Below the pieces are notes generated by a model. The model was not told where the DNA came from, ran no database searches, and saw only the letters and a program-made list of their open reading frames with translations. A DNA stretch of 64,000 bases from the NCBI RefSeq assembly GCF_003703975.1, contig NZ_QTJY01000003.1:124001-188000 (forward strand), in the 5' to 3' direction. This stretch comes from Larkinella soli (GTDB taxonomy: Bacteria; Bacteroidota; Bacteroidia; Cytophagales; Spirosomataceae). The stretch's first letter is position 1. Every line of letters begins with the position of its first letter. Shown here one piece after another: positions 7,848 to 16,947 of the stretch. The translations under genes were made by a program, and so were the position numbers.

Positions 7848-9011
7848 TTATGCCGTCAGCCAGTCGGCCTTCGTAATGTCTTCTCCGTTGCGTTTGACCG
7901 TGTAGGGTCTGTTGTTCTGGGCCATGTACGCCACCCAGCGCTTGACGATCACGTCGACAAAACGCGGGTCGTATTCCATCAGGTAAGCAGGGCGATGGTA
8001 TTGCTCTGCAGCCATCAATGTGACCCCGCTGCCGCCGAAATAGTCAGCAACCAGCCGGAAATTACTATCGAACCGATCAAAGATCCATGCCACCAAACCA
8101 ACCGGCTTTTGAGTAGGGTGAATGCGGTTAGTCTTCTCTGATGCTTTCGTAAACTGGCGTACCACACTTCGAAAGTTGGCCCATGCCAGCTCGCAGTCTG
8201 TTTGGTCGCTTTGTCCGTTGTCCTTGTCCCATACCAGCCAGCATTCACTATCGGGAAGAACAGAAGAGTAATAGTTTGCGCCCCACCAGACCTGTTTGGC
8301 GTCAGGATAGAGGGAATAAATCAGCCGGAAGGCGTCTTTGGCGACGTCGGGGTTGTCATCTCCTAAGATGTCCCGCCCATAGGTATCCTTCAACACGCCA
8401 CTTTTGGAGACCGCGTTCATGCCATACGGCGGATCGGTATGCACCAGGTCAGGCACTTCCCCATCCATCAGCCGCACCACTGCATCCGAGTCCGTCGAAT
8501 CCCCGCACAGCACCCGGTGGCCGTTCAACTCGTAGAGGTCGCCCAGTACGGTAACGGGGTCGGCGGGCGGCTCTCCGGTGTAGTTGTCCTCCTCGGCCTC
8601 TGCCGCTTCGACCGGCCAGTCCATCTCCAGGCCCCAGGCGGCCAGCTCGGCCACGTCCCATTCGTTGGCAAGCAGATCGGTGTCATGCTCGCCGTAAGGC
8701 ACGTTGTCCTTGATGGTGTAGGCCCGTAGCTTCTCGGCGGCCGTATCGGCGGGCAGCACCTTGCAGGGCACGGTCTTGTACTTCAGCTCCTTCATGGCCC
8801 GAAGGCGCATGTTGCCCGCGATGACCACGAAGCGGTCGTCGTAGGGGTAGACGATGCACTCGCGCAGGTCGAGCATCTCCGGGTCGTCGCGGATGGACTG
8901 CACGAGTTTATGGAACCGCTCGTCTTTGATGAAGCGGGGGTTTTTGGGAAGGCCCTCGATCTGGCCGTCGTTGGTATCCAGAAGGGCGATGTCCAGGAGT
9001 TGTGTCGTCAC
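7848..9011 (-). CDS. ParB-like/DPPY DNA methyltransferase fusion
   Basis: A 387-residue two-domain protein. Residues about 1-110 resemble a ParB/sulfiredoxin-type domain (VIAGNMRLRAMKEL...KDNVPYGEHD). The rest is an amino-methyltransferase with catalytic HTDPPYGMN (DPPY at 193-196) and the AdoMet motif DYFGGSGVTLMAAE near residue 340, a beta-class order. DPPY enzymes usually methylate adenine N6. This architecture is common in phages just upstream of terminase genes. The only reasonable start is GTG at 9,011. No cognate nuclease is nearby, so protection from host restriction or a regulatory role is likelier than a complete restriction-modification system. Confidence 0.88.
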   Translation of the reverse strand: MTTQLLDIALLDTNDGQIEGLPKNPRFIKDERFHKLVQSIRDDPEMLDLRECIVYPYDDRFVVIAGNMRLRAMKELKYKTVPCKVLPADTAAEKLRAYTIKDNVPYGEHDTDLLANEWDVAELAAWGLEMDWPVEAAEAEEDNYTGEPPADPVTVLGDLYELNGHRVLCGDSTDSDAVVRLMDGEVPDLVHTDPPYGMNAVSKSGVLKDTYGRDILGDDNPDVAKDAFRLIYSLYPDAKQVWWGANYYSSVLPDSECWLVWDKDNGQSDQTDCELAWANFRSVVRQFTKASEKTNRIHPTQKPVGLVAWIFDRFDSNFRLVADYFGGSGVTLMAAEQYHRPAYLMEYDPRFVDVIVKRWVAYMAQNNRPYTVKRNGEDITKADWLTA

Positions 9012-14402: not shown

Positions 14403-15464
14403 TTAGTGGGTGAAACAGGAATGAAGGCGTTTGCCGATGGCTTCCACGACGTTGACCGTGACGGCGTTGCCGACCATGCGGTATCGCTGGGTTTTCGGCA
14501 CGGACTTGACCTCGTAGTTGTAAATGCCGTAGCGAGTCCAGTTATCGGGGAAGCCCTGAAGGCGTTCACATTCGATCTCGGTCAAACGACGGATGCCCGT
14601 GTCGGCCTGAATGTTAGGAACGACTGTCCCGCTGTTCTGTGAACCGCGACGGAGCGTAGGGGCAAGACCTTCTGAATCGTAAACCCGGTCGGACTGGCTG
14701 TAGGGGGTGCCGTTGACCACCTTAATGATCGGCTGTCCGCTTCCGTCCTGACGCGCCCGGGCGTTGATGGTAGGGCTGTTGCCGTCCTGACGCCAGCGGA
14801 AACCGCTGTCCAGGCGGTAGTCACCCACCTGCACCACCGTCCGCTGTCCGTGGTTGTCTACTCCTTTGGAGTAGTTGGCATCGAGACAATTGACGGTTTG
14901 TGCCCCGGCTGCGAGAGGATGCGGGAAATCGCGTTCGGTGAAAGGAAATACCCCGGGTCGACTTCTTCCATCAAGATGTCCGATAAGGTAGACCCGCTCC
15001 CGATTCTGGGGTAGAAACCAGTCTGTATTAAGCAATTGCCATTCAAGTCGGTAACCCCCAATGTTGGCAAAGGCCTGGACAATTGCCCAAAAGTCTGCGC
15101 CATCGTTTGTGGAGAAAGCCCCTTTAACATTTTCCCAGATAAAAATATCTGGTCGGCATTCTGCAATAAGGCGCATTGCCTGGAGGATAAGAGAACTTCT
15201 TTGTCCGTCCATCCCACTTCGCTGTCCAGCCACCGAGAAATCCTGGCAAGGACTTCCGAAAGTGATGATGTTGGGTCGGGGCAGCTGATGGGATCGAACA
15301 GCGGTAACTGACCCGAGGTTGGACGAGTCGGGGAAGTTGTACTGGTAGTTGGCTGAGGCATGTTTGTCTATCTCGCTGTTAAAGTGCCAGTCAAAGTGAA
15401 AGCCGGCCTGCATGAGGCCTTTGGCGAATCCGCCGATGCCGGAAAAGAGGTCCAGGAGTGTCAT
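14403..15464 (-). CDS. Phage DNA cytosine-5 methyltransferase (first of two)
   Basis: A 353-residue Dcm-type enzyme with the main C5 motifs in order: DLFSGIGGFAKGL (I), GSPCQDFSVAGQR with catalytic Cys near 73 (IV), IWENVKGA (VI), QNRERVYLIG (VIII), a variable target region with CLDANYSKGVDNHGQRT, LTEIECERLQGFPDNW (IX) and MVGNAVTVNVVEAI (X). It methylates cytosine C5 in an unknown sequence. The start MTLLDLFSG overlaps the upstream stop (ATGA). The +1 frame is open over 14,858-15,361 and also looks protein-like; see the separate entry. Confidence 0.93.
   Translation of the reverse strand: MTLLDLFSGIGGFAKGLMQAGFHFDWHFNSEIDKHASANYQYNFPDSSNLGSVTAVRSHQLPRPNIITFGSPCQDFSVAGQRSGMDGQRSSLILQAMRLIAECRPDIFIWENVKGAFSTNDGADFWAIVQAFANIGGYRLEWQLLNTDWFLPQNRERVYLIGHLDGRSRPGVFPFTERDFPHPLAAGAQTVNCLDANYSKGVDNHGQRTVVQVGDYRLDSGFRWRQDGNSPTINARARQDGSGQPIIKVVNGTPYSQSDRVYDSEGLAPTLRRGSQNSGTVVPNIQADTGIRRLTEIECERLQGFPDNWTRYGIYNYEVKSVPKTQRYRMVGNAVTVNVVEAIGKRLHSCFTH
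14858..15361 (-). other. Open +1 frame within the first cytosine methyltransferase gene
   Basis: A 167-codon frame lies wholly inside the methyltransferase gene, shifted +1. Its C-terminal part, LSDILMEEVDPGYFLSPN, resembles a segment I recall (not checked) from C-terminal parts of annotated phage cytosine methyltransferases or small phage proteins. In the gene's own frame the same bases encode the usual CLDANYSKG region. It may be a translated overlapping gene, a frameshift product, or a by-product of constraint on both frames. No frameshift site or start signal is evident. Confidence 0.4.
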
Positions 15465-15765: not shown

Positions 15766-16947
15766 TCAGGCGGGTTGAGATTCGATGTGTTCGATGGCTT
15801 TGAAGAGTTGGTACACCAGCTGGGGCACTACGGCGTTTCCGGCGGCTTTGATGGTTCGAGTTCGGTCCAGTCTGGCGGAAAACCCATCATTTCGAGTACG
15901 AAGCGGGGATTCAGTTGGGAAGTCTTCCCATCCTCTCCGAGCATACCGTGCATGGAGTGAGCCAGCGTGTCGTTCTGCCGCTTCGGGTCGGTTCGGGTGC
16001 AGCCCCCCTTCGCATCCGAGGATGCTGTCGGGGTGGGCAAAAGACTGGCTACCGCCCATCCCAACTTGTTCAGTTTCTGCCGACCGTCGCCCGAGCAGTT
16101 CAGGTTCACGTCGTTGCTGGCTTTGCAGGCATTCGGGGTTGGCAGTAAGGCCCGACTTAGGGCCGTCTCCAGATTGTTGTGTTTGTCGTTCAGCCGGCTC
16201 TCCGAAACTCCCCCGGTCATCGCGCTCCGGGGCGTTGGAAGTAGGGATTGCGCCAATTCTGCCGGATTCAGGCTGCGACCCTTGCGGAACCGTTCCGACC
16301 GGACCCGGTTGGTTGCCGTAGGCGTTGATAGAAGTCCGCTCCGGACCACTCCCGCCAAGCCCAGCCGTGAGCTCGACCCGTCCGGGTTCTTCATCCGCAC
16401 ACTGCCCGTTTCGGTCAGATACGGTTCCCCGCTGCCGCTGTTGAACCCCTCCTGAGCGGCTGGCGTGGGCAATAATCCAAAGTCGGTCCCGGCGGTGGGG
16501 GGCGTTGACACCGCAAGCTGGAAGTACAAACGATTGGACTTCGTAGCCCGCAGCTTCCAGGTCAGTGCACACTTCGTTGAATACCAGTCCAGCGTTCCAA
16601 TTAAGTAGGCCGAATACGTTTTCGCCCACCACCCAACGCGGCTGAATTTCCCGAATGACTCTAAGCATTTCGGGCCACAGGTGGCGTTCATCCTCCTTGC
16701 CGAGCCGCTTTCCGGCGAGGGAGTAGGGCTGACAGGGGAAACCCCCGCAAACAAGGTCAATTGCGCCCCGGTAGGGCTTGCCGTCGAAGGTCTTGATGTC
16801 GCTGTAGCGTTCTGCATTGGGAAAGTTTTTAGCCAGCACCTTGCGGCACCATTCATCGATTTCAACCTGCACCACCGTCTCCCACCCCATCCATTCGGCG
16901 GCAAGGTCAAATCCTCCAATACCTGCGAATAAGCTGCACACTCTCAT
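15766..16947 (-). CDS. Phage DNA cytosine-5 methyltransferase (second of two)
   Basis: A 393-residue enzyme with SLFAGIGGFDLAAEWMG (motif I), GGFPCQPYSLAGKR with catalytic Cys72 (IV), VVGENVFGLLNW with Glu109 (VI), APHRRDRLWIIAHA (VIII) and a final AAGNAVVPQLVYQLFKAI (X). Between VIII and X lies a long glycine/proline/glutamine-rich region of low structure (about residues 165-350). It contains the target-recognition part but no clear motif IX in this frame; a NPRFVLEMMGFPPDW segment resembling that part is in the +1 frame. No restriction partner is visible. Confidence 0.88.
   Translation of the reverse strand: MRVCSLFAGIGGFDLAAEWMGWETVVQVEIDEWCRKVLAKNFPNAERYSDIKTFDGKPYRGAIDLVCGGFPCQPYSLAGKRLGKEDERHLWPEMLRVIREIQPRWVVGENVFGLLNWNAGLVFNEVCTDLEAAGYEVQSFVLPACGVNAPHRRDRLWIIAHASRSGGVQQRQRGTVSDRNGQCADEEPGRVELTAGLGGSGPERTSINAYGNQPGPVGTVPQGSQPESGRIGAIPTSNAPERDDRGSFGEPAERQTQQSGDGPKSGLTANPECLQSQQRREPELLGRRSAETEQVGMGGSQSFAHPDSILGCEGGLHPNRPEAAERHAGSLHARYARRGWEDFPTESPLRTRNDGFSARLDRTRTIKAAGNAVVPQLVYQLFKAIEHIESQPA
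15828..16919 (-). other. Long open +1 frame within the second cytosine methyltransferase gene
   Basis: A 363-codon stop-free frame covers almost the whole methyltransferase gene in the +1 phase. It reads like a patterned protein, with LTLFAGVSPVSP, CALTWKLRATKSNRLYFQL, five copies of LL(P/S)TP, and near the end RFVLEMMGFPPDWTEL. These segments match what I recall, unchecked, from C-terminal parts of annotated phage cytosine methyltransferases. The first ATG lies 28 bases after the enzyme's own start. It may be an overlapping gene or a frameshifted extension. Confidence 0.45.

Follow-up and report, generated by a model that had tools for sequence, protein, structure and literature searches.

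The window, by which we mean the whole stretch of 64,000 nucleotides that was analysed, carries on its minus strand (15766..16947) a gene for the catalytic subunit of a cytosine-C5 methyltransferase, here called alpha (393 aa). Its motifs I, IV (PC), VI (ENV), VIII and X were recognized, with motifs I-VIII followed by a linker predicted to be disordered and then by motif X. Motif IV reads GGFPCQPYS (16720..16746, minus strand, as for all features of this locus) with the catalytic Pro-Cys intact, and G68-P74 and S76 are invariant among 57 aligned alphas. Motif VIII, APHRRDRLW (16477..16503), also consists of invariant columns; it lies at the end of the alpha-dominated part of the overlap and served as a boundary in the codon-position test. 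Motif X, IKAAGNAVVPQ (15820..15852), extends beyond the stop codon of the nested protein described below, and its G370, N371, A372, V374 and P375 do not vary among the 57 alphas. The intervening variable region (residues ~170-345, 15913..16440) is open in the alpha frame and appears to be constrained mainly via the other frame.

The preliminary description had drawn attention to a long stop-free +1 frame inside this 393-codon gene, and such a frame is indeed there: the +1 ORF at 15828-16919 encodes 363 aa from the first TTG, within an open run of 371 codons. The conserved protein in this frame, beta, most likely occupies 15828..16817, starting at an ATG at 16817 (329 aa), and is proposed to be a recognition subunit with motif IX. 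The upstream part of the listed ORF (16818..16919, from TTG 16919) lies outside beta, contains stops in relatives and is probably a shadow. The five LL(P/S)TP units, CALTWKLRATKSNRLYFQL and RFVLEMMGFPPDWTEL, which had been noted in the +1 frame, were every one found in place. Pattern parsing divided this array (15918..16475) into LLPTP-type units at 16475-16335, 16334-16245, 16244-16149, 16148-16044 and 16043-15918, each 30-47 aa long. Motif IX follows as LNPRFVLEMMGFPPDW (15867..15914), in which 12 of 16 positions are invariant among 57 betas, and the FPPDW-like piece was likewise located in the +1 frame.

In line with the preliminary description, which saw no clear motif IX there, motif IX is missing from alpha, and Pfam PF00145 covers only residues 1-163. 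The match of alpha to phrog_363 spans residues 1-391, and its profile aligns to complete methyltransferases over residues 1-168 only. The structure model matches M.HhaI over 198 residues and predicts residues 170-345 to be unstructured. A recognition domain and motif IX in the same chain were not found in alpha: its middle is predicted to be unstructured, and none of 80 alphas contains the motif IX pattern. On these sequence and model comparisons, alpha by itself does not look like a complete enzyme.

The surroundings have the look of a prophage, with terminase-, portal- and ParB-methylase-like ORFs, named by eye, at about 4.8-9.0 kb. Among them, the ORF at 7848-9011 (minus strand) joins what by eye is a ParB-like domain to a DNA methylase, and adjoins the terminase-like and portal-like ORFs. 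A complete cytosine methyltransferase gene neighbouring alpha (14403-15464, minus strand) contains a +1 ORF of its own (14858-15361, minus strand, 167 aa), whose protein gave a weak match to phrog_16143 (E 5.8e-4). The same +1 relation was found in 57 of 57 viral relatives of this second pair, with 7 stops in total in the matches of the inner frame and none in those of the outer one. In 32 non-redundant loci, the rate at position 3 of the outer frame was.174 in the overlap, where this position was still the fastest, versus.399 and.364 in the parts coded by the outer frame only (pairs not disjoint). The shared +1 relation and the damped outer wobble indicate that 14858-15361 probably encodes a real protein.

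Conservation of the nested arrangement

Viral contigs were scanned with beta, and 166 relatives were confirmed, of which the best 80 were fetched. All 80 show the same +1 relation between alpha and beta, in a sample that, having been found by beta similarity, can be enriched in open beta frames (although tblastn matches run on across stops) but not in open alpha frames or in a wobble switch. Beta is nested in a single alpha ORF in 75 of them, and the remaining five have a stop in motif IV of alpha. The alpha ORF extends beyond the beta stop in all 80. The motif IX pattern was found in every beta, and motif X was found in 79 alphas (L067 fails the pattern). One of the loci, L001, lies on an IMG/VR viral contig of 55,580 bases with an identical gene; it is a public copy of the prophage in the window and not an independent case.

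A further 69 loci, 64 on bacterial contigs and 5 in annotated phages, were inspected in the same way, and 68 were in the +1 relation. Nesting is complete in 57; the beta run begins before the alpha run in 4, alpha ends before beta in 7, and L154 is shifted by an indel. In two Bacteroides relatives (L145 and L147), in-frame stops interrupt alpha both in its variable region and shortly before motif X, with beta open, and the ORF coordinates of two others (L146 and L148) are identical to theirs. The +1 frame inside alpha also exists in phages and prophages of E. coli, namely K1G, phage P, N15 and E. coli strain A16. GenBank annotates both coding sequences, separate and nested, in Paenibacillus phage Leyra and Escherichia phage K1G; in N15 and E. 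coli A16 only alpha is annotated, despite an open beta frame. The arrangement is sparse among relatives of the host (9 of 99 genomes, its own included), as expected for mobile DNA.

Selection in the two frames

The alignments comprised 57 loci, that is, the 80 minus 8 without a motif I match and 15 near-identical ones, with the window sequence in place of L001. For the codon-position and stop tests another 8 without the motif VIII pattern were dropped, which left 49. Positions are numbered by the alpha codons, where position 3 is the wobble position of alpha and position 1 that of beta. Substitution rates at positions 1/2/3 were.116/.071/.342 in the alpha-only start (23 disjoint pairs) and.132/.071/.280 in the overlap from motif IV to motif VIII (24 disjoint pairs). 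In the overlapping variable region they were.296/.093/.090 (24 disjoint pairs); position 1 exceeded position 3 in 23 of the 24 pairs and the reverse was seen in none, with a ratio of 3.31 (95% interval 2.84-3.86). The alpha-only tail gave.135/.071/.359 (23 disjoint pairs), with position 3 ahead in 21 pairs and position 1 in 2. Wobble at position 1 in the variable region means that beta is under the stronger constraint there, and alpha elsewhere. Judged by these rates, the stronger constraint along the gene lies first on alpha, then on beta and finally on alpha again.

Stop codons were counted in the same 49 loci. With beta held fixed and codons permuted, 327.7 stops were expected in the alpha frame of the variable region and none was seen. 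With alpha fixed and with fixed bounds, none was seen in the beta frame of this region versus 85.0 expected. Between motifs IV and VIII (bounds fixed from alpha codon 51), the beta frame had 8 stops, in 7 loci, versus 112.7 expected, and all 8 precede the beta open runs, that is, they lie before alpha base 178. The third frame, used as a control, showed no shortage: the variable region had 704 stops versus 704.8 expected, and the stretch between motifs IV and VIII had 363 versus 323.6.

Beta as a protein

When the alpha codons were permuted synonymously, 8 of 10,000 permutations reached the observed length of the +1 open run, and the other sense frame was unremarkable (9,324 of 10,000). The mean permuted +1 run was 154 codons, which marks the +1 frame of this gene as shadow-prone. 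A permutation test on a single gene is suggestive; the comparative tests decide.

In a profile search, beta matched phrog_1008, labelled DNA methyltransferase, with an E value of 1.9e-28; the best stretch covers residues 38-213 of the 363-aa ORF and positions 22-178 of the 329 in the profile. This label and the annotations of phage records agree with the statement in the preliminary description that LLPTP and MGFPxxW segments occur in annotated phage methyltransferases. No match to Pfam or NCBIfam was obtained up to E 1, and a search of the PDB with the beta profile by sequence found nothing. The structure model of beta was of low quality (pLDDT 56.5), and no usable structural match came from it. 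Relatives of beta are present in 69 phage records, and in 220 when the more distant beta of an E. coli phage is the query.

An in-frame ATG precedes a shared Trp anchor by 62-90 codons in all 57 non-redundant loci (L001 included), although this may partly reflect conserved alpha residues. In the matched parts of the 80 relatives, stops in the beta frame fall only at query residues 6-48, plus residue 357 near the C-terminus in three loci. The stops at residues 6-48 imply a true start later than the listed TTG. The conserved beta therefore most likely starts at ATG 16817, upstream of which no obvious Shine-Dalgarno sequence was seen by inspection, and the first 34 codons of the listed ORF are probably shadow. 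The earlier caution that long open shadow frames are common in GC-rich genes applies to these ~34 codons, which contain stops in many relatives. Lack of homologues with an open +1 frame, or constraint in the methyltransferase frame only, had been named as grounds for abandoning the second protein; we found frame-keeping homologues and constraint in both frames. From the comparison of relatives, we conclude that two conserved proteins share the DNA, which was one of the two alternatives first offered and which is supported by the ATG in 57 of 57 loci, the open beta frame upstream of motif VIII and the separate coding sequences in phage records.

The unit array of beta

Pattern parsing of 57 betas gave 205 LLPTP-type units, 1-6 in each and with a median length of 39 aa, some neighbours being merged by the parsing (lengths of 65-107 on the list). 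The 205 units fall into 107 families, of which 28 are common to at least two betas, and 25 of these 28 occur with differing neighbours. Among the shared families, 22 are confined to inner positions, and the other 6 always come last in the array, before motif IX. The most frequent unit was seen in 19 betas, where it stands first, second or third and has 13 different neighbours on its right. Altogether, 56 unit architectures were counted among the 57 betas. Like the modules of multispecific methyltransferases, the beta units stand in tandem and are exchanged between enzymes. No report of such unit shuffling was found in the literature, nor of constraint switching between frames in such methyltransferase genes.

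Pairs such as L021 and L024 are ~99% identical in their best alignment, yet it spans only the first 483 bases of alpha. With a single alignment kept per pair, this limit falls near the end of motif VIII and suggests exchange of a block at that point.

Recognition domains have a TL motif, given as P(STCA)PT(ILV)(TASV) in PMC2413257. In its strict form this motif was found in 1 of the 205 units, and P(STCA)PT in 68. The putative motif IX of beta can be aligned with RLTEIECERLQGFPDNW in the complete methyltransferase next to alpha, but weakly (hhalign probability 1.6%, E 0.032). The place of the units between motifs VIII and IX, their exchange as modules and the precedent of multi-domain phage enzymes together suggest that beta is the DNA-recognition subunit and that each unit may be a recognition module.

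A stop codon in motif IV of some relatives

Motif IV is intact in the window, and the following concerns relatives only. In 5 of the 80 loci (L002, L010, L012, L042 and L065), a TAA splits alpha between the Pro and the Cys of GGFP-CQPYS. Pattern scans followed by filtering yielded 29 distinct viral loci (among them L086-L093, L163-L215 and L314-L359) in which 6 or 9 bases, with a stop as their first codon, are inserted; this stop was preset for the seven obtained by a scan restricted to TAACTA and the eleven from a scan demanding TRR. The stop is TAA in 18, TGA in 8 and TAG in 3 of the 29, and the last codon of the insert encodes Pro in 20 and is CTA, CTT or TCA in 9. A scan in which the inserted codon was left free gave 15 distinct hits of the methyltransferase class, which had 15 stops and no sense codon. 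Three loci placed by the filter in the class 'other' (L314, L329 and L340), with a context that is clearly that of a methyltransferase, also have stops, and hits outside methyltransferases have mixed codons. A beta-type frame is open for at least 170 codons after the site in 27 of the 29 loci; it is cut by the contig end in L324 and has 8 codons in L329.

Substitution rates on the two flanks of the stop were determined from 18 non-redundant loci in all, with pairs that are not disjoint and with the L208 lineage clearly unlike the others. At positions 1/2/3 they were.286/.137/.547 upstream of the stop (15 loci) and.176/.135/.547 in the alpha tail beyond it (17 loci). By this measure, alpha evolves under ordinary purifying selection both before and after the stop.

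Matching codons on either side of a stop make up the arrangement known as a stop-hop. A 2016 review reports demonstrations of in-frame bypassing with synthetic constructs and states that for stop hopping of the natural, in-frame kind 'no occurences are known' (PMC5009743). A further literature search listed no report of it, nor was any found of alpha genes with a stop at exactly this place in motif IV. These relatives are a candidate for a natural in-frame ribosomal stop-hop. The stop in them might also be passed by readthrough, or alpha might be made in two pieces.

Discussion

We consider it very probable that the locus encodes a nested two-subunit m5C methyltransferase of a prophage, in which the +1 frame of the gene for the first subunit encodes the second. 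According to this proposal, alpha would fold into an AdoMet-binding and catalytic domain (motifs I-VIII), continue as a long disordered linker and end in the motif X helix. Beta would be translated from its own internal ATG and would supply what alpha is missing, namely motif IX and a DNA-recognition region made of the five LLPTP-type units. The two chains presumably bind each other and would associate into one complete enzyme, whose parts would lie along the DNA in the canonical order of motifs I-VIII, recognition region, motif IX and motif X. Points that speak against this proposal are the poor model of beta and the empty PDB search, the weak hhalign match of its motif IX, the single unit with a strict TL motif, the lack of an obvious Shine-Dalgarno sequence, and the loci in which alpha ends before beta or has stops in its variable region. 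From the phage setting we infer that its job may be protection of phage DNA from host restriction.

A bolder extension of this proposal, possible but on the whole doubtful, is that beta is a modular specificity subunit in which each unit of ~39 aa reads one DNA target. Phages would then change targets by swapping units in the second frame, which would be tolerated since alpha is a disordered tether there; in some relatives alpha would in addition be controlled by a stop-hop at Pro-Cys, as the first natural case.

Other explanations were weighed against the nested two-subunit enzyme. The idea that a GC-rich gene simply left a shadow frame open by chance is hardly credible: the +1 frame is shadow-prone, with permuted runs as long as those given above, but 8 of 10,000 permutations, the switch of wobble positions, the stop counts and the existence of a conserved protein family all stand against chance. 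Programmed frameshifting, by which ribosomes would leave alpha for beta after motif VIII and return before motif X to give one canonical chain, would account for the canonical order of the parts and for a middle of alpha that is predicted to be unstructured and less constrained than beta. It requires two opposite shifts, however, and is difficult to reconcile with the beta frame, which upstream of motif VIII shows 8 stops where 112.7 are expected and which in all 57 loci offers an in-frame ATG. Moreover, the middle of alpha stays open against 328 expected stops, which frameshifting does not require. We regard frameshifting as improbable, and the +1 shift to an alternative C-terminus that had been suggested in the preliminary description is not needed, as beta has an ATG of its own.

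Both proteins could also be real without beta being a methyltransferase subunit; it might be an inhibitor or another DNA-binding protein that shares the DNA. The lack of a usable structural match for the beta model, and the fact that a single unit out of 205 has the strict TL motif, would fit this reading. Against it, the motif IX-like block that alpha is missing sits in beta in 80 of 80 loci, public labels call the protein a DNA methyltransferase, and M.EcoHK31I provides a precedent of two polypeptides with motif IX in the small chain, as laid out in PMC3404938. A beta that is no methyltransferase subunit therefore seems quite unlikely, and the nested two-subunit enzyme is the reading that we retain.

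The locus is a clean natural example of dual coding, in which two conserved proteins overlap over most of a gene and the stronger selection changes frame and back. For split methyltransferases of this class, it suggests a recognition part located in the second protein and not in the first. Where records list only alpha, expression tests may include or lose beta unnoticed. The shuffling of units offers a testable model of how phages change their methylation targets. What is new is this shuffling and the proposed location of the recognition region; the two-polypeptide m5C enzyme itself is already known.

Comparison with known systems

The closest counterpart is M.EcoHK31I, whose small chain, reportedly described by Lee et al. 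in 1995, is said to be encoded inside the large one in another frame. The account of this enzyme (YGGCCR) in PMC3404938 places motifs I-VIII and X on the large chain and motif IX on the small one. Compared by motif layout, the present system is alike, with motifs I-VIII and X on alpha (X in 79 of 80) and motif IX on beta (80 of 80). The predicted recognition domain of M.EcoHK31I is placed in the large chain (PMC3404938), whereas here the corresponding region of alpha is predicted to be disordered and the beta frame is the more constrained. Unlike its counterpart, beta also carries an array of shuffled units.

M.AquI (CYCGRG) also consists of two polypeptides, with motifs I-VIII and motif IX on separate chains, motif X on the small chain as well, and a variable region split between the chains, according to the description in PMC3404938. 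In contrast, motif X stays on alpha in the present system. The genes of M.AquI are not known to be nested.

M.SPRI is an example of the multispecific m5C methyltransferases of Bacillus phages. Such enzymes of temperate Bacillus phages have several recognition domains arrayed in one polypeptide (PMC12707154). Their domains are in a single chain, whereas the unit array here is on a separate chain encoded in the +1 frame. The nested pairs of Leyra and K1G, in the latter with an 'Mte8-like protein' (PHROG 1008 and 363), have the same nested +1 architecture, and the annotation rows examined for them do not state a recognition role, which is the role that we propose for beta.
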